This document shows, piece after piece, positions 1 to 10,043 of a stretch of DNA of 10,043 nucleotides; position 1 is the first letter of the stretch; every line of letters starts with the position of its first letter. Position numbers and translations under genes: made by a program. This DNA is from an uncultured Lachnospiraceae bacterium (GTDB taxonomy: Bacteria; Bacillota; Clostridia; Lachnospirales; Lachnospiraceae), in the NCBI GenBank assembly GCA_947594085.1, contig CANQEB010000075.1, positions 1-10,043 of the forward strand. The letters run 5' to 3'. The notes beneath the pieces were generated by a model. That model saw only the letters and a program-made list of their open reading frames with translations, was not told where the DNA came from and made no database searches.

Positions 1-892
1 GCTCACTCGCCGCCTGGATCGCTGCCGCCTGTGCCGGAAGCGAGACATTCCACGGCTGCAGGATCGCACGCATCCGGTTGAGAAGATCCGTGTCTGCACA
101 GATCCCATAGCCGAAACGCAATCCGGGCATCCCGTATATTTTTGTGAATGACCGGATCACGAAAATCCTTGAAGGCCTCGATCCTACAGCTCCGTCCGAA
201 CCATCCGATTGCTTCTGAGCTTCCAAAATCTCGCAGATGCCGGAAAAAGTCCGAACCCTGTCCTCATCACAGAGAAAGTCATAGAAACTCTCATCTAATA
301 CCAGCAGAATCCCTCTCTCCCGGCAGCGCTCGATGATTCGCTCAAGAATTGTCCTCTCGATCAGCCGCCCGGTTGGATTGTTCGGATTGCCGAGCACGAC
401 ACAGTCCGTCTCCTCGTCGATTGCATCTGCGAAGCCCTCATCCAAGCGAAAGTCCTGCTCTTCCCTCAGTTCAAAATGGCGAATCTCACAGCCGAACGCC
501 GCAAGCGCTTGTTCGTACTCAAAAAAGGACGGTACTGCAAGCAGCGTTCTGCGCGGTCTATACGCGGCCGCAAGCGCAAACATCAGCTCCGCTGCCCCGT
601 TTCCGCAGATAATCTGATTCGCCAATATCTGCCCCGACACAGCCTGCAGCACAGACTCCCTCTTGGCAAGCGCCAGTCTGAGCGCGCGACACTCTGGATC
701 CGGGTAGTGGATGGAATCCGCCACCGCACTTCTCGCAGCCAGCTGCACCGCAGGCGGCATCCCGCGAAAATTAATATTCGCGGAAAAATCCGTTATTTCG
801 TCGCATTTCTCAAATGTCTCCCGTCCGCTCGCCGTGTCCGGGCAACGCTCTGTCCGGCAGGCGTAGATATCTCCGCCATGTTTATGAAGCAT
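1..892 (-). CDS. cobD: Threonine-phosphate decarboxylase CobD, 3' end cut off by the window
   Basis: PLP-dependent fold-type I aminotransferase-like enzyme. It decarboxylates L-threonine-O-3-phosphate to (R)-1-amino-2-propanol phosphate, the linker CbiB attaches to the corrin ring. The open frame runs off the left edge; 297 residues are visible. Seen: the N-terminal HGGDIY; SANINFRG then HYPDPECRAL (residues 37-71), typical of CobD; CGNGAAEL (96-103); GNPNNPTG (168-175); VLDESFYDF (198-206), whose Asp200 should contact the PLP pyridine nitrogen; and SFTKIYGMPGLRFGY (248-262), whose Lys251 should form the Schiff base. The ATG at 892 is preceded by GGGGA at good spacing, and an in-frame stop lies 18 nt upstream, so the N-terminus is secure. 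Histidinol-phosphate aminotransferase is the main alternative; the N-terminal motif and the nearby cbiB and cobS favour CobD. In Pseudomonas nomenclature this enzyme is CobC. Confidence 0.9.
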   Translation of the reverse strand, partial: MLHKHGGDIYACRTERCPDTASGRETFEKCDEITDFSANINFRGMPPAVQLAARSAVADSIHYPDPECRALRLALAKRESVLQAVSGQILANQIICGNGAAELMFALAAAYRPRRTLLAVPSFFEYEQALAAFGCEIRHFELREEQDFRLDEGFADAIDEETDCVVLGNPNNPTGRLIERTILERIIERCRERGILLVLDESFYDFLCDEDRVRTFSGICEILEAQKQSDGSDGAVGSRPSRIFVIRSFTKIYGMPGLRFGYGICADTDLLNRMRAILQPWNVSLPAQAAAIQAASE

Positions 893-918
893 AAAGATTC
901 CCCATACTCACGTCGCCC

Positions 919-1002
919 TCATCGCGACGCTTCCCTTATCTCTTCCGTCCCTTTTCCCTCAAAAATGGAACGCAGCCCGCTTTTCGCAAGCATGATTTTC
1001 AT
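919..1002 (-). CDS. Possible 27-codon small ORF upstream of cobD
   Basis: An ATG at 1002 opens a 27-codon frame (beginning MKIMLAKSGLRS) that ends at 919-921, 26 nt before cobD. A GGAG sits 7 nt before the ATG. However, if the promoter at 1017-1045 is used, the transcript should start at about 1009-1011, leaving little or none of that GGAG in the RNA. I do not recognise the peptide. It could be a leader peptide, a small protein or chance; I lean towards chance. Confidence 0.2.
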   Translation of the reverse strand: MKIMLAKSGLRSIFEGKGTEEIREASR

Positions 1003-1016
1003 CGTAGTTCTCCATT

Positions 1017-1045
1017 ACTATAACAGAAAATCTCGGGCTTGCCAA
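1017..1045 (-). promoter_or_regulatory. Sigma-A promoter for cobD
   Basis: Read on the minus strand: TTGGCA (1045-1040), a 17-bp spacer, then TATAGT (1022-1017). Each hexamer is one mismatch from consensus. It lies between the DUF4130 gene and cobD and points at cobD, so cobD can be transcribed separately from the repair genes upstream. Expected start of transcription is around 1009-1011, giving a leader of about 118 nt. No operator or riboswitch was recognised in that leader. Confidence 0.6.
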
Positions 1046-1103
1046 ATCCTTTTTGGAGCCCATGTCCGCCCTACCCATGTCAGTGCAAAATAAGGCACAA
1101 TCC

Positions 1104-1871
1104 TCAACCAATCCGGCCTTTCCGAAACTCCGTCGCATGCTTCCGATACCAGATCGGCATATTTGTGCGCTGGCATTTTTGATTCTTGCGCGCCTCAATC
1201 GCAATACTCTCGAAAAACTCTCTCCACAGATCCGTGTAAAGATCCTCTTCTTCCTCCGTCTCTCGCAGCTGATCCAGCTCTTCTGGCGTAAGCCGCGTCA
1301 TATAATATGCCTGATCCTTTGGATGCACCGCCGCAATCCGCCGATTATCGTCGATCAGCATCCAATACTCTGATGGCATCCGGTCCGCAAAATGCGCAGC
1401 GGATATCGCCGTCACATTGCACTTCGGCTCGATGTGTGCCACGTAAATCGGCCCAACCTGCGAAAATCTCGTAAACTCCCGGAAATAATTTGCCTCCGTA
1501 TTTGCCTTGCGGCTCAGCTCAAAAATCCACACGACCTCTGGCCGAGACAACATCCTTGTCAGCTTTCCTCCGACGGCAAAGCCAAGCACTAGGAAACGAT
1601 AGATCGCGTCCAATCGGTCCGGCTCAAACGACATAGCCGCGAGAAACACCTGACGGTATGCCTCGTATGATATCTTCCTCTGAATCGTTCGCACCACCTT
1701 TGCTGCCTTGCCAAAATCCGCGTCCACATGCACATAATCACAGAATAAACTCTGCTGCCAGACCGGCTCAAGCTGCAGCCGTAGGTTGTCGTGCCCCAAG
1801 CGACTCGCCCAGGCATCGTACACGCACGTCATCATCGCCTCAAATGTATCTTCACAAGTAAATACTGTCAT
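1104..1871 (-). CDS. TIGR03915/DUF4130-type probable DNA metabolism protein, partner of the radical SAM protein
   Basis: A 255-residue soluble protein of the family that co-occurs with the TIGR03916 radical SAM protein. In many genomes this partner is fused to a uracil-DNA-glycosylase-like domain (TIGR03914); no such domain is present here, and the length matches the unfused form. Seen: N-terminal MTVFTCEDTFEAM; a central helical segment with YRFLVLGFAVGG; VGPIYVAHIEPKCNV; and the C-terminal block WREFFESIAIEARKN followed by PIWYRKHATEF, typical of DUF4130. Two ATGs compete: GGGGAGG abuts the one at 1877 but is 6 nt from the one at 1871, so 1871 is preferred. The biochemical function is unknown. 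It follows the radical SAM gene on the same strand after 192 nt and probably shares its SOS promoter. Confidence 0.8.
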   Translation of the reverse strand: MTVFTCEDTFEAMMTCVYDAWASRLGHDNLRLQLEPVWQQSLFCDYVHVDADFGKAAKVVRTIQRKISYEAYRQVFLAAMSFEPDRLDAIYRFLVLGFAVGGKLTRMLSRPEVVWIFELSRKANTEANYFREFTRFSQVGPIYVAHIEPKCNVTAISAAHFADRMPSEYWMLIDDNRRIAAVHPKDQAYYMTRLTPEELDQLRETEEEEDLYTDLWREFFESIAIEARKNQKCQRTNMPIWYRKHATEFRKGRIG

Positions 1872-1996
1872 TTTCATCCTCCCCGGATCTTTGTCCTATC
1901 CTTCAGCCCTGCAAAGTCCTTTGATTCAAATCTCCATCCACACGTAAAGCGCACACACAGCTGCACATACCGTGTCTTCCTCTTCCCGCAAGGTCA

Positions 1997-2015
1997 CATG
2001 CTCGCATCGAGCATG
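1997..2015 (-). other. Perfect hairpin between the radical SAM and DUF4130 genes
   Basis: CATGCTCG and CGAGCATG form a perfect 8-bp stem with a 3-nt loop in the 192-nt gap between the two genes. No T-run follows on the minus strand, so it is not a standard intrinsic terminator. It could be an RNA processing or stability element, or a weak attenuator lowering DUF4130 expression. Nothing else recognisable was seen in the gap. Confidence 0.4.
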
Positions 2016-2063
2016 CTTTCACGCTCCACCTGTTTATGAATTTATTTCTTTCCGACTGGCTTC

Positions 2064-3590
2064 TCACGCTTCCATCTGGAAATCCTCGAACAGGGACAGC
2101 TGCCTGAATCCGCCCTTTTTGCTGTGCCGAATCTGCCAATTCTCCTTCTCATTCACCCCGATCAGCTGGCGCGCAATATAGCGCTCTTCGATCGGTGTCG
2201 CATACATCATTCTGCCATTGCAGCTAATGAAATAATGCGCTCGCTTCAACACTACCCCCATCTTCTTCAGATGCGGAAAGTCCAACTTCCCGTGTCTGCG
2301 CGCCTGAATAATGCGCAGCGCAGATTTCGGCCCAATTCCCGGGACGCGCAGGATCATGCCGTAGTCCGCCGTATTGATCTCTACGGGAAAAAGCTCCAAA
2401 TGTCGCAGCGCCCAGTCACACTTCGGATCCAGCAGCTCATTGAAGTCCGGCCTCTCCTCGTTCAGAAGCTCATCTGCCCGGAAGCCGTAAAAACGCAACA
2501 GCCAGTCTGCCTGATACAGCCGGTGCTCCCGCAGAAGTGGCGGAGGTGTCCCGATCGCTGGCAGGGCGCTATCTTCATTGAGCGGCACATAAGCCGAGTA
2601 AAAGACGCGCTTCAAATCATACGTCTGATACAGATATTGCGTGGTCTTCAACAGCTGATAATCCGTCTCCGGTGTCGCCCCAATAATCATCTGCGTGCTC
2701 TGCCCCGCCGGGGCGAACGGGCGCTGCAGATTCTGCCGTCGAAGTTCGGCCGGGAGCGAGAAGCTCTCCCGCTCGACATTGGCCGACTGACTTCCTCTTA
2801 CGATCAAATCCTCCGCAGGCATCTGCTCTTTCAGCGGGTGCACATCGCCGACGAATCCACTCTGATCCGTCTTCTCTCTAATCCGATCGCCTGTCCCGGA
2901 GAAGATACCCCCTCCGAGCCGTCGCGTCGATCCACTCCGCTCCATCTGTGCACTCTTCCCGATCGCCAATCGATGCTCTGCAATCGTATCGCTCACCATT
3001 CGCATCGGTCGCAGAATCGCCTTGTGCGTTTTGTTCGGAGCGAGCTTTCTCAGACTCTTCTCCGTCGGCAACTCCAGATTAACACTCATGCGATCCGCCA
3101 GATAGCCTGCCGCCGCCAACAGCTCCTCCGGAGCGCCCGGAATCGCCTTCACATGGATGTAGCCATTGAAGTGATATTCATTCCTCAGCAGATACAGTGC
3201 CTCGCAGATGCGCTCCATCGTATAAGCTGGGCTATTCCACACGCCAGAGCTTAAGAATAGCCCTTCGATGTAATTCCTCTTGTAGAACTCGATCGTCAGC
3301 TCACAGACCTCCCGCGAGGTGAAAGCCGTACGCACTGTATCATTCGAAGAGCGATTGAGGCAGTACTTACAGTCATAAATACAGTGGTTCGTCAATAAGA
3401 TCTTCAACAGCGAGATGCATCGCCCATCCGCTGCAAAGCTATGGCAAATGCCCGCCGCCACGGAATTCCCCAGGTATCCCTCCCTGCCTCGCCTGTCCAC
3501 ACCGCTCGAAGTACAAGCCACGTCGTATTTCGCAGCATCCGCCAGGATATGCAACTTCTCCTGAAGCGTCAGTTCCGATCTGATCTCCAT
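2064..3590 (-). CDS. Putative DNA modification/repair radical SAM protein (TIGR03916, rSAM_link_UDG type)
   Basis: Radical S-adenosylmethionine enzyme of unknown reaction, from the family paired with TIGR03915 and linked to uracil-DNA-glycosylase-like proteins. The ATG at 3590 (508 residues) is preferred: it has AAGGAG/GGAG upstream and gives the expected beginning MEIRSELTLQEKLHILADAA. An ATG at 3677 would start inside the promoter palindrome. Seen, in 508-residue numbering: YDVACTSSG (about 22-30); the iron-sulfur motif CIYDCKYC (Cys70, Cys74, Cys77); VNLELPTEKSLRKLAPNKT (from about 170); APAGQSTQMIIGATPETDY (about 293-311); FYSAYVPL; a helix-hairpin-helix, VPGIGPKSALRI (about 416-427); and near the C-terminus QLSLF (497-501), the canonical beta-clamp-binding pentapeptide. 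A polar stretch of about 79 residues (about 212-290) interrupts the core, which explains the length over the usual 400-odd residues. SOS control is likely. Confidence 0.88.
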   Translation of the reverse strand: MEIRSELTLQEKLHILADAAKYDVACTSSGVDRRGREGYLGNSVAAGICHSFAADGRCISLLKILLTNHCIYDCKYCLNRSSNDTVRTAFTSREVCELTIEFYKRNYIEGLFLSSGVWNSPAYTMERICEALYLLRNEYHFNGYIHVKAIPGAPEELLAAAGYLADRMSVNLELPTEKSLRKLAPNKTHKAILRPMRMVSDTIAEHRLAIGKSAQMERSGSTRRLGGGIFSGTGDRIREKTDQSGFVGDVHPLKEQMPAEDLIVRGSQSANVERESFSLPAELRRQNLQRPFAPAGQSTQMIIGATPETDYQLLKTTQYLYQTYDLKRVFYSAYVPLNEDSALPAIGTPPPLLREHRLYQADWLLRFYGFRADELLNEERPDFNELLDPKCDWALRHLELFPVEINTADYGMILRVPGIGPKSALRIIQARRHGKLDFPHLKKMGVVLKRAHYFISCNGRMMYATPIEERYIARQLIGVNEKENWQIRHSKKGGFRQLSLFEDFQMEA

Positions 3591-3638
3591 ATTTCTCCAC
3601 TCCTTCTGCTGTAGTCCCGCCCTTTCATGAGTGAAAAC

Positions 3639-3692
3639 GCGAAAAGAGAACGTATGTTCTGTTCTATTATAGAACATACGTTCTCTTTTCGC
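3639..3692. promoter_or_regulatory. Twin LexA (SOS) boxes in a perfect 22-bp-arm palindrome
   Basis: The arms at 3639-3660 and 3671-3692 are perfect reverse complements, 22 nt each, around the 10-nt centre GTTCTATTAT. Each arm carries an SOS box, GAACGTATGTTC at 3648-3659 and GAACATACGTTC at 3672-3683, with box centres 24 bp apart. Both fit the Gram-positive LexA consensus CGAACRNRYGTTYC apart from its outermost bases. One box fills most of the spacer of the radical SAM promoter; the other covers the expected transcription start. Binding by LexA would therefore block the promoter. The role is inferred from the motif and its position. Confidence 0.88.
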
Positions 3693-3694
3693 AA
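3666..3694 (-). promoter_or_regulatory. Sigma-A promoter of the radical SAM/DUF4130 genes
   Basis: On the minus strand: TTGCGA (3694-3689), a 17-bp spacer, and a perfect TATAAT (3671-3666). The expected start is near 3659, giving a leader of roughly 70 nt to the ATG at 3590. The promoter is embedded in the LexA palindrome, so it should be strong when derepressed and closed when LexA is bound. Confidence 0.8.
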
Positions 3695-3818
3695 GAGGTT
3701 TTTCAAATATTTCGTATTTAATTCACTGCGAGTTTTTCATATTGGCTACCCGAACGCCCTGCACGGGCTGTGCTGTGATATGCGACGGAATATAGAAGCA
3801 TCTACATGCTACAGACCA

Positions 3819-3963
3819 GCCCGAAGAGGGAATTGCGATACCTTAGGCAAACCGTATATGAGGCCGCCGGCACTTAGCGAATGCGTAGCATGAGCTTAGT
3901 ACCGCTGCGTTGCCGAATCGAGTGAGAACGTGTTTGCCGTGGTATCGACAATTCCCATCGGGC
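3819..3963. repeat. 145-bp imperfect inverted-repeat element, probably a structured RNA or dispersed repeat
   Basis: The outer arms pair with small bulges: GCCCGA..GGGAATTG.CGATACC..GGCAAAC.CGT from 3819, against its reverse complement ending at 3963. At the centre, ACTTAGC-GA-ATGC-GTA-GCAT-GA-GCTTAGT (about 3870-3898) folds as a hairpin. In plus-strand RNA the two internal GA steps face each other as tandem G.A pairs. The element lies 17 nt beyond the GNAT stop codon, with no T-run and no credible ORF. It could be a 3'-UTR structure ending the MATE-GNAT transcript, a MITE-like dispersed repeat, or a non-coding RNA. The rest of the 3693-3979 gap shows only small hairpins, such as GCCCTGCACGGGC. 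Confidence 0.6.
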
Positions 3964-3979
3964 GTCCGGATCTTGTGAA

Positions 3980-4564
3980 TCAAACACGAATCGCTCTCTC
4001 AAGCACCAGCCGCTGCGTCTTCATTCCGACCGCCTCATAGAATGCCAGCGCCGACCGATTAAATTCCCATACCATCAGCTCAATTCTTGCCGCGCCCTGT
4101 TCCTTTGCCCTGCGCTCAGTCTCCTCGTACAGTGCCGTGGCCACGCCACACCTGCGCGCCGTCTCGTCGACATACAACGCCTCTATGTATGCGGCTTTGC
4201 TCTCGGGATTTCCATGGAAAGCCTTCGGCTCCCGAATCGCCGCCAGGCTGATTCCTATGAGCTTTCCTTCCTCCTCCGCCGCAAGCGCAATGCACTGCCC
4301 GCACACGACGATCGCTTCGAAGTCCTCCCGCGAATACACATGCTCCGTCCGTGCGTACTGATCCGGACGCGCGTCCACATGCATCCTGTGAAGGCAGCTC
4401 ATCTTTTCATCTACAGCATCATAGTCCTGCGGCGTCATTGCCCTGATCTTCATATTCTCCGGAACAACGGATGCCACTCGTCTTTGCAGCGTTGCCTTTT
4501 TGTTCTCTTCATCTTCTGTCGCTTTCTCTGGGGTCATAATATCCTTCTCCATATTCATCTCCAT
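3980..4564 (-). CDS. GNAT-family N-acetyltransferase
   Basis: Predicted acetyl-CoA-dependent acetyltransferase; substrate unknown. Seen (194-residue numbering): IRAMTPQDYDAV beginning the core at about 40; IEALYVDETARRCGVATAL (127-145), which is motif A with the acetyl-CoA-binding loop RRCGVA; and ELMVWEFNRSALAFYEAVGM (162-181), typical of GNAT motif B. The first 37 residues are charged and not part of the usual fold. The start is uncertain: the ATG at 4564 follows a weak purine-rich site (GGCGGCGGA), the ATG at 4537 has AAGGA 4 nt away, and the ATG at 4453 has GGAG only 3 nt away but begins exactly at the domain. It lies 28 nt after the MATE gene and is probably cotranscribed, so detoxification of a compound the MATE protein also exports is possible but only inferred. 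Confidence 0.82.
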   Translation of the reverse strand: MEMNMEKDIMTPEKATEDEENKKATLQRRVASVVPENMKIRAMTPQDYDAVDEKMSCLHRMHVDARPDQYARTEHVYSREDFEAIVVCGQCIALAAEEEGKLIGISLAAIREPKAFHGNPESKAAYIEALYVDETARRCGVATALYEETERRAKEQGAARIELMVWEFNRSALAFYEAVGMKTQRLVLERAIRV

Positions 4565-4592
4565 TCCGCCGCCTTTCCGTCTGGCACTATGA

Positions 4593-5963
4593 TCAATTTT
4601 CTTCAGAAGTCCCGGAAATCCCCCAGCTTTTCGTCCTGCGCAGATAATAAAGGATAAACAGCGCAGCCGTGCAACCCCAGGAGATCGGATAATTCAACAC
4701 AATCGTCTGCAATGACGGCCGCAGCGGGACAACCAGGAAGATCCACGCGATGCGGAAGAGGCAGACACCAAACATCGTCAGCAGCATCGGCAGGATCACG
4801 TCTCCCACCGCCCGCAGCGCGCCGGAAAAGATCTCGACAAAGCTGAACACAAAGTAGCAAGGTGCGATCACGCCCATCACCTCCGTGCCGATCCGAACCA
4901 CATCCGCGTCCCGCGTAAAGATGCCGAACAAAGGCCCGCGGAAGGTCAGAAGCAGCGCGCTGATCCCCAGCGAAAACAGCTGATGCATGCCAAGGCAGAT
5001 CCAGACGCCCTTCTTCATCCGGTCGAAACGATGCGCCCCGTAATTCTGTCCGACAAAGGTTGTGATCGAGATGCCGAATGCGCCGTTGATCATCCAGAAG
5101 ACCGCGTCGAGCTTGCCCTCCGCGGCCCATGCCGCCGTCGCGTCCGTGCCAAACGCGTTGATCGCAGTCTGGATGATGATGTTCGACAGACTGTACATAA
5201 CCGACTGAACGCCGCCCGGAAGTCCAATGAAAAGCTGCGACTTCAGGCTGTTCCCGCGAAACGCGATCCCTCCAAGTTCCAGCCGGTAGATGTCGTCTGA
5301 ATTCATCAGCGCCCTCGTCACGAGAAACGCGCTGAACACCTGCGAGATCGCGGTCGCGATCGCTACGCCGCCGACGCCGAGCCTCAGGACGACCACCATG
5401 AGAAGATCCAGCACGATATTGAGCAGGCAGCAGGCGATCAGGTAATAGAGCGGACGCTTCGAGTCGCCGAGCGAGCGCAGGATGCCCGAGCCGATGTTGT
5501 AGATGAACACAAAGACAATGCTGGCGAAATAGATCCGCAGGTACAGCGTCGAGCCAGCCATCAGCTCTTCCGGCGTGTTCATGAGTCTTAACATGGTCGG
5601 CGCGAGCCAGATGCCGAGCACCGTCGCGACAATGCCGCCGACGATCGAGAACGCGTACGCCGTGTGGAGCGCGTCGTTCAGATTCTTCTCATCGTTCGCG
5701 CCATAATAGCGCGCCACGATCACGCCCGCGCCTGCCGAGAGCCCCGTAAAAAAGCCGACGACAAGATTGACCGTCTGCCCGGAGGAGCCGCCCACGCTCG
5801 CGAGCGCCTGCTTCCCGACAAAGCGGCCGACGATCACCATGTCCACGGTATTGTAAAGCTGCTGAAAAAAAGTCCCCAGCAAAATGGGAAAGAAAAAAGC
5901 AAGAAGCTGCTTCCAGATCACACCCTCGGTGATCTGATGTCCCGCACTTTTTGCCCTCTGCAT
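4593..5963 (-). CDS. MATE-family multidrug/toxin exporter
   Basis: Polytopic inner-membrane transporter of the MATE family (NorM/DinF superfamily), expected to have 12 membrane helices and to export cationic compounds using a Na+ or H+ gradient. The ATG at 5963 gives 456 residues, the usual family size, and has GGAGG 8 nt upstream. An in-frame ATG at 6086 would add 41 residues of non-membrane sequence and is rejected. Seen: ITEGVIWKQLLAFFFPILLGTFFQQLYNTVDMVIVGRF at the N-terminus (given here as adjoining motifs ITEGVIWKQLLAFFFP and LLGTFFQQLYNTVDMV), GSGILRSLGDSKRPLYY, and in the second half FVGQNYGAHRFDRMKKG and SGALRAVGDVILPM, which mirror the first half as expected for the internal duplication. 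The natural substrate cannot be read from the sequence. A promoter with a probable operator lies upstream (6067-6126), and the GNAT gene follows. Confidence 0.9.
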   Translation of the reverse strand: MQRAKSAGHQITEGVIWKQLLAFFFPILLGTFFQQLYNTVDMVIVGRFVGKQALASVGGSSGQTVNLVVGFFTGLSAGAGVIVARYYGANDEKNLNDALHTAYAFSIVGGIVATVLGIWLAPTMLRLMNTPEELMAGSTLYLRIYFASIVFVFIYNIGSGILRSLGDSKRPLYYLIACCLLNIVLDLLMVVVLRLGVGGVAIATAISQVFSAFLVTRALMNSDDIYRLELGGIAFRGNSLKSQLFIGLPGGVQSVMYSLSNIIIQTAINAFGTDATAAWAAEGKLDAVFWMINGAFGISITTFVGQNYGAHRFDRMKKGVWICLGMHQLFSLGISALLLTFRGPLFGIFTRDADVVRIGTEVMGVIAPCYFVFSFVEIFSGALRAVGDVILPMLLTMFGVCLFRIAWIFLVVPLRPSLQTIVLNYPISWGCTAALFILYYLRRTKSWGISGTSEEN

Positions 5964-6066
5964 AAGTACATCCTCCGTTCTCTTCCCGTCACTTTCTGTG
6001 TTCCTGCTGCCCGTTTTTAGCACGGAACAATCATGCGCTCTCTGCCTGCTTCCTACTTTATCCGTG

Positions 6067-6126
6067 TACGAAACATACTCACACAAAAGAGAATGCTTGT
6101 CAATTACTTTTTACAAATGTTTCGTA
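6067..6126 (-). promoter_or_regulatory. MATE gene promoter with inverted-repeat operator candidate
   Basis: On the minus strand: a perfect TTGACA (6103-6098), a 17-bp spacer, and GAGTAT (6080-6075) preceded by TGT, an extended -10 element. TATGTT at a 20-bp spacing is a poorer alternative. TACGAAACAT (6067-6076) and ATGTTTCGTA (6117-6126) are exact 10-bp inverted repeats bracketing the promoter: one covers the -10, the other lies upstream of the -35. The site GTACGAAACATAC is itself a partial palindrome, as seen in TetR-type operators. No regulator gene is in the window. Confidence 0.5.
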
Positions 6127-7116
6127 TCATAGTGATATCAGCAGCGCAAGCACCGCCGCCTTCACGATTCCAAGCACCGCAAGCGACAGCACCGAGGCCG
6201 CCGTCATCATCTGATTCACCCGCGCAATGTCCTCAAGCTCGATTAGGCGCAGGTCGTCCCCGATGAACGGCTTCTTGTGAAGCTTCCCGAAATACCAGGC
6301 GTCACCGGCCAGCCGCACATGCAGCGCCCCGGCCGCTACCGCCTCCGTCTGCGCGGAGTTCGGGCTTGCATGGTTCCTGCGATCCCTTTTCCAGATCTTC
6401 CACGCCATCTTTCCGTCCTGTCCGGTCAGACACGCTCCCAGGATCAGAAACAGCGCCGCAAGCCGCGCCGGAATATAATTTACAATGTCGTCCAGCCGCG
6501 CGGCGATCCGCCCGAAATACAGATAGCGGTCGTTCTTGTAGCCGACCATCGAATCCATTGTGTTGACACTCTTGTACGCGAAGCCGAGCACGCCACCGCC
6601 GAGCATCATGTACAGCATCGGCGCGAACACGCCGTCCGAAAAGTTCTCTGCGACCGTCTCGACCGCCGCCCGGATCACGCCGGGCTCATCCAGAACTTGC
6701 GTATCGCGCCCGACGATGCGCGCCACCGCCCTCTGCCCTGCCTCAAGTCCTTCCTCGCGCAGAGCCCGCGCCACATTTGCGCTCTCCCTGCGCAGCGTCT
6801 TCACCGCGAACAGAAAAAAGCACATCACGGCCTCAAGAGCCACACCAAACCAAAAATTCAGGCGATATGACGCGCACAGCAAAAGCGCCGGAATCCCGGC
6901 AGAGAGTATAACCACAAGCACCGCCATGATCCCGCCGCCGACAAGTTCTCCGTTCTTCGTCTTCGGCAGACAGTTCCGGATCTGTTTTTCCAGCCATGCG
7001 ATCAAATTTCCAATCAGACAGATCGGGTGAAGCGCCGTCTGCGGATCGCCGAAAACCGCGTCCGCCAGAAAGCCAAGCACCACCGCGAGCAATAAGCCCG
7101 CCGCGTATTTCCACAT
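6127..7116 (-). CDS. cbiB: Adenosylcobinamide-phosphate synthase CbiB
   Basis: Integral membrane enzyme that joins adenosylcobyric acid to (R)-1-amino-2-propanol phosphate, the CobD product, giving adenosylcobinamide phosphate. The 329 residues match the family length. Seen: LADAVFGDP then HPICLIGNLI (17-39); VARIVGRDTQVLDEPGVIRA (131-150); AVETVAENFSDGVFAPMLY (151-169); NTMDSMVGYKNDRYLYFGR (185-203), followed by AARLDDIVNYIPARL; and NHASPNSAQTEAVAAGAL (248-265). Several hydrophobic segments lie near both ends and in the middle. The ATG at 7116 has AGGA 7 nt upstream. It follows cobS after 85 nt, a stretch with no clear promoter or terminator, so it is probably cotranscribed with cobS. In Pseudomonas nomenclature this protein is called CobD. 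Confidence 0.95.
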   Translation of the reverse strand: MWKYAAGLLLAVVLGFLADAVFGDPQTALHPICLIGNLIAWLEKQIRNCLPKTKNGELVGGGIMAVLVVILSAGIPALLLCASYRLNFWFGVALEAVMCFFLFAVKTLRRESANVARALREEGLEAGQRAVARIVGRDTQVLDEPGVIRAAVETVAENFSDGVFAPMLYMMLGGGVLGFAYKSVNTMDSMVGYKNDRYLYFGRIAARLDDIVNYIPARLAALFLILGACLTGQDGKMAWKIWKRDRRNHASPNSAQTEAVAAGALHVRLAGDAWYFGKLHKKPFIGDDLRLIELEDIARVNQMMTAASVLSLAVLGIVKAAVLALLISL

Positions 7117-7201
7117 ATCTTTTCCTCACATAATTCCATCGTAATAATCGAACAGTTTACCAGCTTATCTACGATCCTAATTCCATACTCTGTTCATCAC
7201 A

Positions 7202-7978
7202 TCACGTAAATACCTTTATCACCACATCCGCCGCCACGATCGCAAGCGGCATCACAAGCTCACACACCGAGAGAAAACAGCCCGCCAGATCTCCGTTGAT
7301 CCCGCCGAAATGCTTCATCGCCATATGATGATACCACAGGAAGGTCAGCAGCGCCCCCACAAGAGCCGCCGCTGCAGGGACAGGCTGCAAGGCAAACATC
7401 GTGACTGCACAGACCGCCAGGTAGACCAGGCTTGTTCCCTGTATGACACGCGTCTGCGCATTCTTCGAAAATCCCGCCACGGTCCCCTCTGCTGAAGCTT
7501 TCGGAAAGGTCACGACCGAAATCGCGCTGAGCGAGCGCGACACGACAAATGTAAAGACGTACACCCGCACCAGTTCCCCCACAACTATGTCAAGCGCGCC
7601 ATACATCAGAAAAAAATAAGCGGCGCACGCAATCACCGCAAACGCCCCCGCATGGGAATCCTTAAGGATCTCCAGCCGTTTCTCGCGCGGCCTCCAAGAG
7701 CTCATCGCGTCCGCCGTATCAAGCAGACCGTCCAGATGGATCCCTCCGCTGACCGCAAGCGGGATCAGCATCAGCACGACATTGCGCAGCGGCGCGTGAA
7801 GGTTCAGATATCCGGCCAGCGCGTCCCAGCCGAGGCAGAGCGCCCCGATCACCGCGCCGATCAGCGGAAAGAAACACATGACATATTTCGTATTTTCCTC
7901 CGACCAGTCGCACTGCGCGGCCGGGAGCCTGGAGTACATCGAAAATGCGATATTCAGGCTGTTCCAAAGTCGCTTCAT
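7202..7978 (-). CDS. cobS: Adenosylcobinamide-GDP ribazoletransferase (cobalamin synthase) CobS
   Basis: Membrane enzyme for the assembly step that joins adenosylcobinamide-GDP and alpha-ribazole (or its phosphate), producing adenosylcobalamin or its phosphate. Seen, counting from the ATG at 7978 (258 residues): WNSLNIAFSMYSRLP at the N-terminus; FFPLIGAVIGAL (36-47); the signature GGIHLDGLLDTADAMSS (78-94), with the acidic Asp residues expected to bind Mg2+; and RLEILKDSHAGAFAVIA (101-117). Multiple hydrophobic helices follow. An in-frame ATG at 8023 would add 15 hydrophilic residues; 7978 fits the family beginning and has GGAG 9 nt upstream. The 132 nt back to the ATPase gene hold no strong promoter and no convincing cobalamin riboswitch. 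Its partner cobU is not nearby. Confidence 0.94.
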   Translation of the reverse strand: MKRLWNSLNIAFSMYSRLPAAQCDWSEENTKYVMCFFPLIGAVIGALCLGWDALAGYLNLHAPLRNVVLMLIPLAVSGGIHLDGLLDTADAMSSWRPREKRLEILKDSHAGAFAVIACAAYFFLMYGALDIVVGELVRVYVFTFVVSRSLSAISVVTFPKASAEGTVAGFSKNAQTRVIQGTSLVYLAVCAVTMFALQPVPAAAALVGALLTFLWYHHMAMKHFGGINGDLAGCFLSVCELVMPLAIVAADVVIKVFT

Positions 7979-8098
7979 CTCATAGTTCTCCGCATTATCC
8001 CCATTACAACCACAGTGTTTCAATACCTATTCCTGCTCAGATCTCCTACTGAGGCACTCTTCTACAGGCGTTGCAATAAATCTCTCATCCTGATCTAA

Positions 8099-8119
8099 GC
8101 AGATTCCGTCTCAATCTGC
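8099..8119 (-). terminator. Weak hairpin at the end of the ABC importer genes
   Basis: GCAGATT and AATCTGC form a 7-bp stem with a 7-nt loop spanning the ATPase stop codon. No T-run follows on the minus strand, so it is at best a weak terminator or a 3'-end stabilising structure. Read-through into cobS is possible. Confidence 0.25.
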
Positions 8120-8863
8120 CTGATCTTCGTCTCTTTGAATCCCTCGCAGAAAATCCGCCGAGCGCGGATCCTTCGGGTTCGCGAAAAATTCTTCAGCCGT
8201 GTTCTCCTCCACGACCAGTCCGTCCTCCATGAACACGACGCGGTCCGCAACCCTGCGGGCGAACTCCATCTCATGCGTGACCACGATCATCGTCGTCCCC
8301 TCGTCCGCGAGGCGCTTCATGACGTCCAGCACCTCTCCGGTCAGCTTCGGGTCAAGCGCCGAGGTTGGCTCGTCAAAGAGAATCACGCTCGGACTTAAAG
8401 CGATCGCGCGCGCGATAGACACTCTCTGCTGCTGACCGCCCGAGAGCTGCGAGGGATAGGAATCGCTCCACTCGAGCATACCGACCTTCTCAAGTGCTTT
8501 CCTTCCGATGGCTTCGGCCTCCGCTTTCGCCATCTTTCGGCCGACTGTCAGCCCAAGCGTCACATTTGCGAGCGCAGTCTTGTTGGCAAACAGCTGGTAA
8601 TCCTGAAAAACGAAGCCGATCTTTTTGCGGTAGCGCAGGATGTCCTTCCTGGAAATATGATCCGCCCGGAACAGCTCGTCGTCGAACTCGATCTCTCCGC
8701 CGTCCGCCGTCGTCAGAAAGCTGACGCAGCGCAGAAGCGTCGTTTTCCCCGAGCCGCTCGGCCCGAGGATCGCGATCACGTCGCCCTCGTTTACCTTCAA
8801 ACTGATATTCTTCAGGACCTCACGCGGCCCGAAGCTTTTCCGGATATTCCTGAGTTCGATCAC
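8111..8863 (-). CDS. Polar amino-acid ABC transporter ATP-binding protein (GlnQ/TcyC type)
   Basis: Cytoplasmic ATPase that powers the importer formed with the permease and binding protein upstream. Its 250 residues match the family. Seen: Walker A GPSGSGKT (34-41); Q-loop Gln87 in FQDYQLF; ABC signature LSGGQQQR (140-147); Walker B ILFDE (161-165) followed by the D-loop SALD; and switch His197 in VVTHEM. All catalytic elements are intact. The start is GTG at 8863; no in-frame ATG is available just upstream, and the ribosome binding site is a modest AAGGA/GGAAG. The closest subtypes by eye are the glutamine and cystine importers; the substrate cannot be decided. The gap of 83 nt to the permease holds a small ATTGTCG/CGGCAAT hairpin. 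Confidence 0.93.
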   Translation of the reverse strand: MIELRNIRKSFGPREVLKNISLKVNEGDVIAILGPSGSGKTTLLRCVSFLTTADGGEIEFDDELFRADHISRKDILRYRKKIGFVFQDYQLFANKTALANVTLGLTVGRKMAKAEAEAIGRKALEKVGMLEWSDSYPSQLSGGQQQRVSIARAIALSPSVILFDEPTSALDPKLTGEVLDVMKRLADEGTTMIVVTHEMEFARRVADRVVFMEDGLVVEENTAEEFFANPKDPRSADFLRGIQRDEDQAD

Positions 8864-8946
8864 AGCTTCCGTTTTCCTTTCCTGCCCATTTTAATCCAAT
8901 CATAATTGCCGCTTCTGCCCCGACAATGGTCAGCTCTCAACACGAC

Positions 8947-9609
8947 TCACCGTTTTCTCTCCAGTCTCTTCTCCATCTTCCGCTGCAGCCAGGTCAGGAA
9001 GGTACAGAAGATCAGGTAGATCACCCCTGCCTCGCAGTACAGCCAGAAATAATCGTAAGTGCGCGCCGCGATCCGCTGCGCCGTCGCCAGGATCTCCACA
9101 ATCGCCACGCTGTAGGCCAGCGAAGTGTCCTTTACCAGCCCGATCAGGGAGTTGGACAGCGGCGGAAACGCCGTCGTCAGCGCCTGCGGGATGATCACAT
9201 GCCGCATCGTCTGTGTGAATGTCATTCCCACGCAATACCCGGCCTCCAGCTGTCCCGGCGGCACAGACTCGATCGCCGCACGCACCGTCTCGGAGCAGTA
9301 GGCCCCGACGCTTAAGGAAAACACGATGACCGCGCAGGGAAACGCCGGAAGCGTGAGCCCGATGCTCGGCAAGCCGAAATAGACGACAAAGAGCTGCACG
9401 ATCATCGGGGTGCCTCGGATGATCCATACATAGAACCTTGCCGCCTGCTTCAATATCGGTATTTTCGCCACCTGCACCAGAGCTACCGCCAGCGCGATGC
9501 AAAGGCCGATGGAGAAAGAAAGAAAGGTCAGTGGAATCGTCACGCGGATTCCCGGAAGCAGAAGCTTCCAGAAGGAATCCACGAGCTCATTCAGAATTCT
9601 TGCATTCAT
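8947..9609 (-). CDS. Polar amino-acid ABC transporter permease (HisM/GlnP family)
   Basis: Inner-membrane channel subunit; such permeases act as dimers with two ATPase subunits. The 220 residues match the family. Seen: an N-terminal half of hydrophobic helices with IRVTIPLTFLSFSIG; RGTPMIVQLFVVYFGLP (65-81), a hallmark of this family; SETVRAAIESVPPGQLEAG (106-124); and the EAA loop EAGYCVGMTFTQTMRHVIIP (122-141), which docks on the ATPase. The tail is basic (QRKMEKRLERKR). The ATG at 9609 has only a distant AAGGA (12 nt), and a TGCGG/CCGCA hairpin lies just before it, so translation may be weaker than that of the binding protein. It is the second gene of the binding protein-permease-ATPase operon. 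Confidence 0.93.
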   Translation of the reverse strand: MNARILNELVDSFWKLLLPGIRVTIPLTFLSFSIGLCIALAVALVQVAKIPILKQAARFYVWIIRGTPMIVQLFVVYFGLPSIGLTLPAFPCAVIVFSLSVGAYCSETVRAAIESVPPGQLEAGYCVGMTFTQTMRHVIIPQALTTAFPPLSNSLIGLVKDTSLAYSVAIVEILATAQRIAARTYDYFWLYCEAGVIYLIFCTFLTWLQRKMEKRLERKR

Positions 9610-9744
9610 ATACCGTCTGTTTCCTTAATTGCGGAATTGCCGCATCATGCGCATCGTAATATCCCGTTTTCTTTTCCATACATTTCGATGCTCTGTGCGG
9701 CAATCTCGTTATTTTTGTTGCTCTTCAGAAATAAATTGCGGCTT

Positions 9745-9767
9745 CTGCTGTCCCAACCGACAGGCAG
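9745..9767 (-). other. Hairpin just after the binding-protein gene
   Basis: CTGCCTGTC and GACAGCAG pair as an 8-bp stem with one bulged base and a 6-nt loop, starting 7 nt after the stop codon of the binding-protein gene. No T-run follows. In ABC importer operons such structures often protect the 3' end of the binding-protein mRNA so that this subunit is made in excess; that role is inferred here. The rest of the 9610-9774 gap holds a further 9-bp inverted repeat, ATTGCCGCA (9636-9644) against TGCGGCAAT (9696-9704), and no ORF. Confidence 0.4.
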
Positions 9768-9774
9768 CCAGAAA

Positions 9775-10043
9775 TCACTCCGCAGCTTCCGTCTCCGCCG
9801 GAGTCAAAGCCTCGCTCTCCGACTCTGCATCGCCCGCGTCGTTCGCTGTGACGTCCAGACCGTTGAAGTACTTCTTCGACACCTCGGCGAGCTCTCCGCT
9901 CTCGCGCGCCTGCTCCAGCGCGTCGTTGACCGCCTCGATCAGCCTCTCGTTGCCCTTCACCACCGGGACGTAGGAGCTCGGCTCCGGATCCGCGTACGCC
10001 ACGATCTTCACATCCTCCTCCGGATGCTCCTTCATGTAATCGT
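9775..10043 (-). CDS. C-terminal end of an amino-acid ABC transporter substrate-binding protein (5' part outside the window)
   Basis: The frame is open to the right edge; about 88 residues are visible. This is the last part of a periplasmic-binding-protein-like type II fold: YVPVVKGNERLIEAVNDAL followed by GELAEVSKKYFNGLDVT closely resembles the C-terminal helix of glutamine- and cystine-type binding proteins. In a Gram-positive cell it would be a lipoprotein, but the signal sequence is not in the window. After DVT there is an unusual acidic, Ala/Glu-rich tail of about 23 residues that is not part of the usual fold. It is the first visible gene of the importer operon and is followed by the permease after 165 nt. 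Confidence 0.85.
   Translation of the reverse strand, partial: DYMKEHPEEDVKIVAYADPEPSSYVPVVKGNERLIEAVNDALEQARESGELAEVSKKYFNGLDVTANDAGDAESESEALTPAETEAAE

Follow-up and report, generated by a model that had tools for sequence, protein, structure and literature searches.

Several LexA sites on one promoter are known from Escherichia coli, where the lexA and recN promoters and those of the colicin genes carry them. The promoter analysed here also bears more than one LexA site, although the LexA motif and the genes are different. It lies in a stretch of 10,043 nucleotides (nt), hereafter the window, from an uncultured Lachnospiraceae bacterium (GenBank assembly GCA_947594085.1, contig CANQEB010000075.1, positions 1 to 10,043), where a perfect inverted repeat precedes two genes, one encoding a radical S-adenosylmethionine (SAM) protein of the TIGR03916 family and the other a DUF4130 protein of the TIGR03915 family. 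We hold it highly probable, judging from sequence comparison, that this repeat is a doubled LexA operator laid over a sigma-70-type promoter, and that the TIGR03916-TIGR03915 operon is controlled by the SOS response.

In comparing this locus with earlier work, we take CAC3343 of Clostridium acetobutylicum, from its product name, to be a TIGR03916 protein, and COG4277 to be the TIGR03916 family; the SOS reports from Verrucomicrobia and Alphaproteobacteria mentioned below are reportedly those of Erill 2016 and Paes da Rocha 2008. SOS control of CAC3343-CAC3344 was predicted in 2013 from footprint and expression, thus providing independent support for the same pair being under LexA; the prediction concerned one species, and the sections of that text drawn upon here describe neither a doubled operator nor a promoter register (PMC3828012). 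The COG1573-COG4277 operon of Bacteroidetes has likewise been predicted to be under SOS control and would contain the same radical SAM gene if COG4277 equals TIGR03916, but its partner is a uracil-DNA glycosylase, whereas the partner in the window is a stand-alone DUF4130 protein, and the LexA motifs differ; the same source cites SOS control of a uracil-DNA glycosylase system in Verrucomicrobia and Alphaproteobacteria (PMC8565304). DUF4130 itself was termed a "predicted mutagenesis-related enzyme" and, within a gene network centred on SOS, tied to uracil-DNA glycosylases and to radical SAM proteins of the SplB-like kind, a link drawn from gene neighbourhoods, with no operator analysis in the portion consulted (PMC3765255). 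Radical SAM proteins that are LexA-controlled, like that of the window, were also reported in the Gram-positive core LexA regulon (PMC7739468) and in Streptomyces (vnz_31145; PMC9380542); their family is unstated in the parts of these sources used here, and they may be of the SplB type rather than TIGR03916. A search for TIGR03916 by name gave no match in the open-licence PMC literature, where absence is weak evidence.

Paired LexA boxes over a predicted promoter

The Gram-positive LexA (DinR) operator has a GAAC-N4-GTTC core within the consensus CGAACRNRYGTTYC. A search of the whole window for GAACNNNNGTTC with up to one mismatch returned two sites only, both exact, one in each arm of the repeat. 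The two boxes are identical, each being the reverse complement of the other; both contain the exact core, their central letters (GTAT and ATAC) fit RNRY, and their outer bases are A and T, compared with C and G/C in the consensus. The elements of the region are as follows.

3639-3692, no strand: perfect inverted repeat, arms 3639-3660 and 3671-3692 (22 nt each, 100% complementary) around a 10-nt centre; from complementarity and fold
3689-3694, minus strand: -35 hexamer TTGCGA; from the promoter scan
3672-3683, minus strand: predicted LexA box 1, reading GAACGTATGTTC on the minus strand, in the spacer and abutting the -10; from the motif search and its same place in ten close species
3666-3671, minus strand: -10 hexamer TATAAT, with the start site placed by inference near 3659; from the promoter scan
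3648-3659, minus strand: predicted LexA box 2, reading GAACATACGTTC on the minus strand, at the expected transcription start; from the motif search and register analysis
3600-3607, minus strand: likely ribosome-binding site AGAAGGAG, 9 nt ahead of the ATG; from direct reading of the sequence

The promoter scan of positions 3500-4000 gave a single match, TTGCGA-17-TATAAT on the minus strand; shuffled copies of this region gave 0.7 matches on average, so that the match is not significant on its own. Both boxes overlap this promoter: box 1 forms the end of the spacer between the hexamers, and box 2 starts six bases beyond the -10, which puts the boxes at registers -6 and +18, counted from the first -10 base. 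The ATG of the TIGR03916 gene (3590) lies 48 nt downstream of the repeat. The first-pass annotation had described twin boxes of identical core in perfect 22-nt arms enclosing this promoter, one in the spacer and the other on the expected start site, and the repeat, motif and promoter searches confirmed this arrangement. When the window was simulated 20 times with a first-order Markov model (loops of 3-60 nt), the longest perfect arm reached 7-12 nt, against the 22 nt observed, and the single-strand DNA fold of the repeat amounts to -23.9 kcal/mol (z -11.5).

The genome assembly (2.4 Mb, 71% complete) contains a single lexA match (244.6 bits, cut-off 110.95), and an exact box lies just upstream of its recA gene (L006). 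Exact GAACNNNNGTTC sites occur at 15 places in the assembly and the reversed motif at 49; the 15 include the two of the window, the one before recA and three within 84 bp on contig C178.

Conservation of the boxes and of their placement

The upstream regions (-250 to +20) of orthologous genes were compared in the genus, the family and the class. In the genus, an exact box was present before TIGR03916 in all 27 loci, with two boxes in 10 of them; in one locus (L235) the two boxes sit at -252 and -227, partly beyond the compared region. Of 31 recA loci, 28 had an exact box and none had two, and an ATP-binding cassette (ABC) ATPase taken as a control had none in 30. Three loci that repeat genes already counted (L254-L256) were excluded from the genus counts, and the lexA, recA and ABC counts cover the best-scoring loci plus L016 and L006, not every genome.

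In the family, we used 66 loci from 67 genomes over the cut-off, the window's own locus (L034) included; G063 (N-terminus missing), the partial G025, G031:C8, G045:C146 and low-score matches were left out. An exact box precedes TIGR03916 in 32 of these loci (two boxes in 9), and with one mismatch allowed the numbers rise to 64 of 66, with two or more boxes in 54. The reversed motif gave 0/66 exact sites, 1/66 at one mismatch and no locus with two or more, and three control regions of the same length (two coding, one far upstream) gave no exact box and 6/66 each at one mismatch. Among the 256 palindromic half-sites, GAAC ranked first (32 loci) and TTTT next (11). The class set comprised 64 loci, a few of them with less than 350 nt upstream (L100, L145, L146). 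G139 was excluded as fragmented and G142 for its nearly absent upstream sequence, together with the window's own locus and matches below the cut-off. Here a box with at most one mismatch was found in 52 of 64 loci, two or more in 11, compared with no exact site and 3 at one mismatch for the reversed motif, and no exact site for the control regions, in which 3 to 9 of 64 loci had a box once one mismatch was allowed.

A scorable promoter was present in 65 other family loci, and the placement of 122 boxes was scored in 64 of these. Counted from the first -10 base, 82 of the boxes lie in three registers, -39 to -37 (20 boxes), -8 to -6 (18) and 17 to 23 (44), whereas boxes placed at random in 1000 trials reached these registers 9.8 times on average and 23 times at most. 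The same -10 was picked with the boxes masked in 59/65 family loci. Of the 27 genus loci, 26 carry a box in the spacer or at the start, 12 of them in both places. This clustering indicates that the doubled operator is common in the Lachnospiraceae family, the register pair varying between genera. In L247, L248 and L251, of the same genus, the last four bases of the spacer box, which adjoin the -10, are GTGC or GTAC in place of GTTC; boxes ending in GTGC could give up some fit to LexA and gain an extended -10 (TGn directly upstream of it).

Taken together, the presence of lexA, the boxed recA and the retention of boxes above control levels in orthologous promoters strongly support the LexA control that the first-pass annotation had proposed, and the family registers agree with it. 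Several observations weigh against it. The expectation that orthologues keep the boxes held in the genus (none of 27 lacking) and the family (2/66), but not throughout the class, where 12 of 64 loci have no box at one mismatch or less, nor in the named set, where a count of the printed rows gave 57 of 80 loci with at least one such box and 23 with none. Exact boxes are few in the class (6/64), and TTTT ranks first there among the half-sites with GAAC tied third, so that the class support rests on the one-mismatch count. Moreover, a box in the spacer or start register was found in only 17 of 63 class loci, with 35 having boxes elsewhere and 11 none; either the layout or the promoter pick therefore appears not to hold in the class. 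The conservation of the boxes is thus less well supported in the wider class than in the genus and family. Of 47 assemblies of the genus searched for the TIGR03916 gene, 20 gave no match, and the transcription start is predicted from the promoter pattern. A LexA table for Clostridioides difficile contains no radical SAM gene in the part consulted, the presence of TIGR03916 in that species not being established (PMC4234289). Finally, the lexA genes of the genus carry no exact box (0/29; 9 at one mismatch), only degenerate ones, and the same is true of the window genome's own lexA promoter (L016, 2121-2176), which has three degenerate boxes and, with 107 nt upstream, fell below the 120-nt limit for that count. 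The autoregulation of lexA therefore looks weaker than the control of recA and of the radical SAM gene.

Outside these genes, the three exact GAACNNNNGTTC boxes on contig C178 (L012, G000:C178, 1488-1571) lie upstream of an open reading frame (ORF) of 146 residues on the minus strand (1014-1454). It has a hydrophobic stretch, no Pfam family over the cut-off and a weak holin-like match; we regard this putative ORF as a candidate SOS gene whose product possibly acts on the membrane.

Symmetry of the operator arms

The symmetry was followed in ten close species: UBA7225 and nine members of the genus, one of them the window's own. In every one of them box 1 abuts the -10, and the start-to-start distance of the boxes is 24 in three species, 25 in five and 29 in two. 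In the window, L228 and L235, the nine flanking bases pair without a mismatch; once the box interiors are counted as well, the window species alone is perfect over the whole arm. Relative to the window, L235 has three flank positions changed on both arms, such that its 9/9 flank match is kept, and one paired change separates L229 from L232, which suggests that the arms change in a coupled manner. One-sided differences are also present, for example in L230, L231, L233 and L234, and the flanks of L234 and L153 are asymmetric. The flank match is 6.7 of 10 within species vs. 6.0 across species (permutation p 0.009, uncorrected for relatedness). For 54 further pairs of boxes from the family, this match was at the cross-species level for 9 nt (p 0.11) and 12 nt (p 0.29), and above it for the nearest 6 nt (p 0.0085).

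Replication can equalise the arms of an imperfect palindrome by template switching, known as quasipalindrome correction. Such switching between existing LexA boxes could have produced the 9-nt flanking symmetry as a mutational by-product, and we consider this a serious possibility without favouring it; it is compatible with LexA control, not opposed to it. The paired changes in L235 and between L229 and L232 argue for it, as does the restriction of the long symmetry to one clade. However, the events are few and accompanied by the one-sided differences, most of the clade tree lacks resolution (7 of its 10 inner branches are open), for which reason the paired changes were counted independently of it, and constraint on the -35 and the A-tracts could yield part of the pattern.

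That the extended palindrome is functional in itself, regulating the gene as a cruciform or as a hairpin in a read-through transcript, is improbable, although the strong single-strand fold, the paired changes and the higher within-species flank match, uncorrected as it is, would suit it. The whole arm is perfect in one of the ten species and two others are asymmetric, and the family pairs, beyond their nearest 6 nt, do not exceed the cross-species level, such that a conserved functional palindrome is without support outside the close clade. In addition, the predicted mRNA begins at box 2 and would lack the other arm, and no terminator pattern was found at the repeat. A fixed cooperative geometry was rejected as well: the centre distances, which are 24, 25 or 29 bp among the close species and 13-63 bp among the 54 family pairs passing the 12-65 bp filter, do not keep one helical phase. 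The cooperative binding or cruciform that the first-pass annotation had read from the perfect palindrome is therefore unsupported. We conclude from these comparisons that what is conserved is the doubled operator, the perfect symmetry being local. The further symmetry in the 9-nt flanks belongs to one clade, and control can probably do without it.

It is very unlikely that the boxes bind another repressor of a GAAC-N4-GTTC-like site, such as a prophage LexA-like regulator; some same-genus genomes do have additional, weaker LexA-family matches, but the window's assembly, at 71% completeness, has the single lexA match, and recA of the same genus bears the same motif. A small mobile or terminator element containing the motif by chance, of which perfect inverted repeats are typical, can be dismissed, since the arm core GAACGTATGTTC had no match in the 2.4-Mb assembly other than at this repeat, which is thus not a dispersed repeat in the assembled sequence, a terminator pattern is missing at the repeat, and the boxes occupy set promoter positions across the genera of the family.

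The gene pair and its expected expression

The predicted doubled LexA operator precedes the following genes.

2064-3590, minus strand: TIGR03916 radical SAM protein, 508 residues, with the CX3CX2C motif C70/C74/C77; from profile searches and alignment
1104-1877, minus strand: TIGR03915/DUF4130 protein, 257 residues, the likely co-transcribed partner; from profile searches

The first protein scored 688.6 bits with the TIGR03916 profile (curated cut-off 343.5), and its cluster cysteines are invariant across 46 sequences; a helix-hairpin-helix match (25.5 bits) remained below the Pfam cut-off of 27. The second scored 255.3 bits with TIGR03915 (curated cut-off 112.25) and 162.3 bits with PF13566 (cut-off 27). 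The TIGR03915 gene lies downstream of TIGR03916 on the same strand in 64/66 family and 56/64 class loci, and no promoter or terminator pattern was found between the two genes (1850-2100). Both families carry "putative" in their NCBI names. A TIGR03914 uracil-DNA glycosylase had no match in the window's 71%-complete genome.

The structure alignments were built from the window proteins and from candidates of the named loci, 62 of 78 for DUF4130 and 45 of 75 for the radical SAM protein. Membership of DUF4130 in the DHH phosphoesterase superfamily was not adopted: it is a lead from the fold, and the sequence comparisons did not bear it out, hhalign with RecJ giving a probability of 0.4% over 12 columns and a search of PDB profiles giving nothing for the DUF4130 protein up to E 10. 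The 50 chains listed for the radical SAM model do not include spore photoproduct lyase, an absence that excludes nothing. Residues about 220-290 of the radical SAM protein are modelled with low confidence (predicted local distance difference test, pLDDT, <50 at 232-273), and many same-genus TIGR03916 matches break off near residues 200-207 and 290, pointing to a variable insertion.

Under LexA control, LexA dimers on the spacer and start sites would block RNA polymerase in undamaged cells, and DNA damage would activate RecA, leading to LexA cleavage and expression of the operon. In E. coli, LexA has a higher affinity for boxes of consensus sequence (PMC9578287). With affinity judged from the sequence, two full-consensus sites would make repression tighter and induction later than for recA, because recA has one exact site and the lexA sites are degenerate. 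Binding, repression, induction and its timing in this organism are what we infer from these patterns.

SOS control of the pair was already predicted (PMC3828012; related operons, PMC8565304), so that the functional evidence which such control would give, according to the first-pass annotation, is not new. The present data add, as a modest advance, the apparent breadth of this control, the layout of the doubled operator and the finding that its boxes are no further from the consensus than those of recA. A further proposal remains speculative, and we give it little credence: that doubled full-consensus operators, fitting better than those of recA and lexA, mark a tightly held late SOS function, the pair (with DUF4130 possibly of a DHH-like fold) being costly or mutagenic to DNA in the absence of damage rather than serving benign early repair, and that the operator arms co-evolve by template switching. 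It is very likely, as earlier papers had suggested, that the TIGR03916-TIGR03915 pair is part of the Lachnospiraceae DNA-damage response. Conserved SOS control in this large group of gut bacteria would point to damaged DNA as the setting of the pair's reaction and would provide a condition for its assay, namely anaerobic cells treated with mitomycin C, in which the doubled full-consensus operator predicts tight and late expression.
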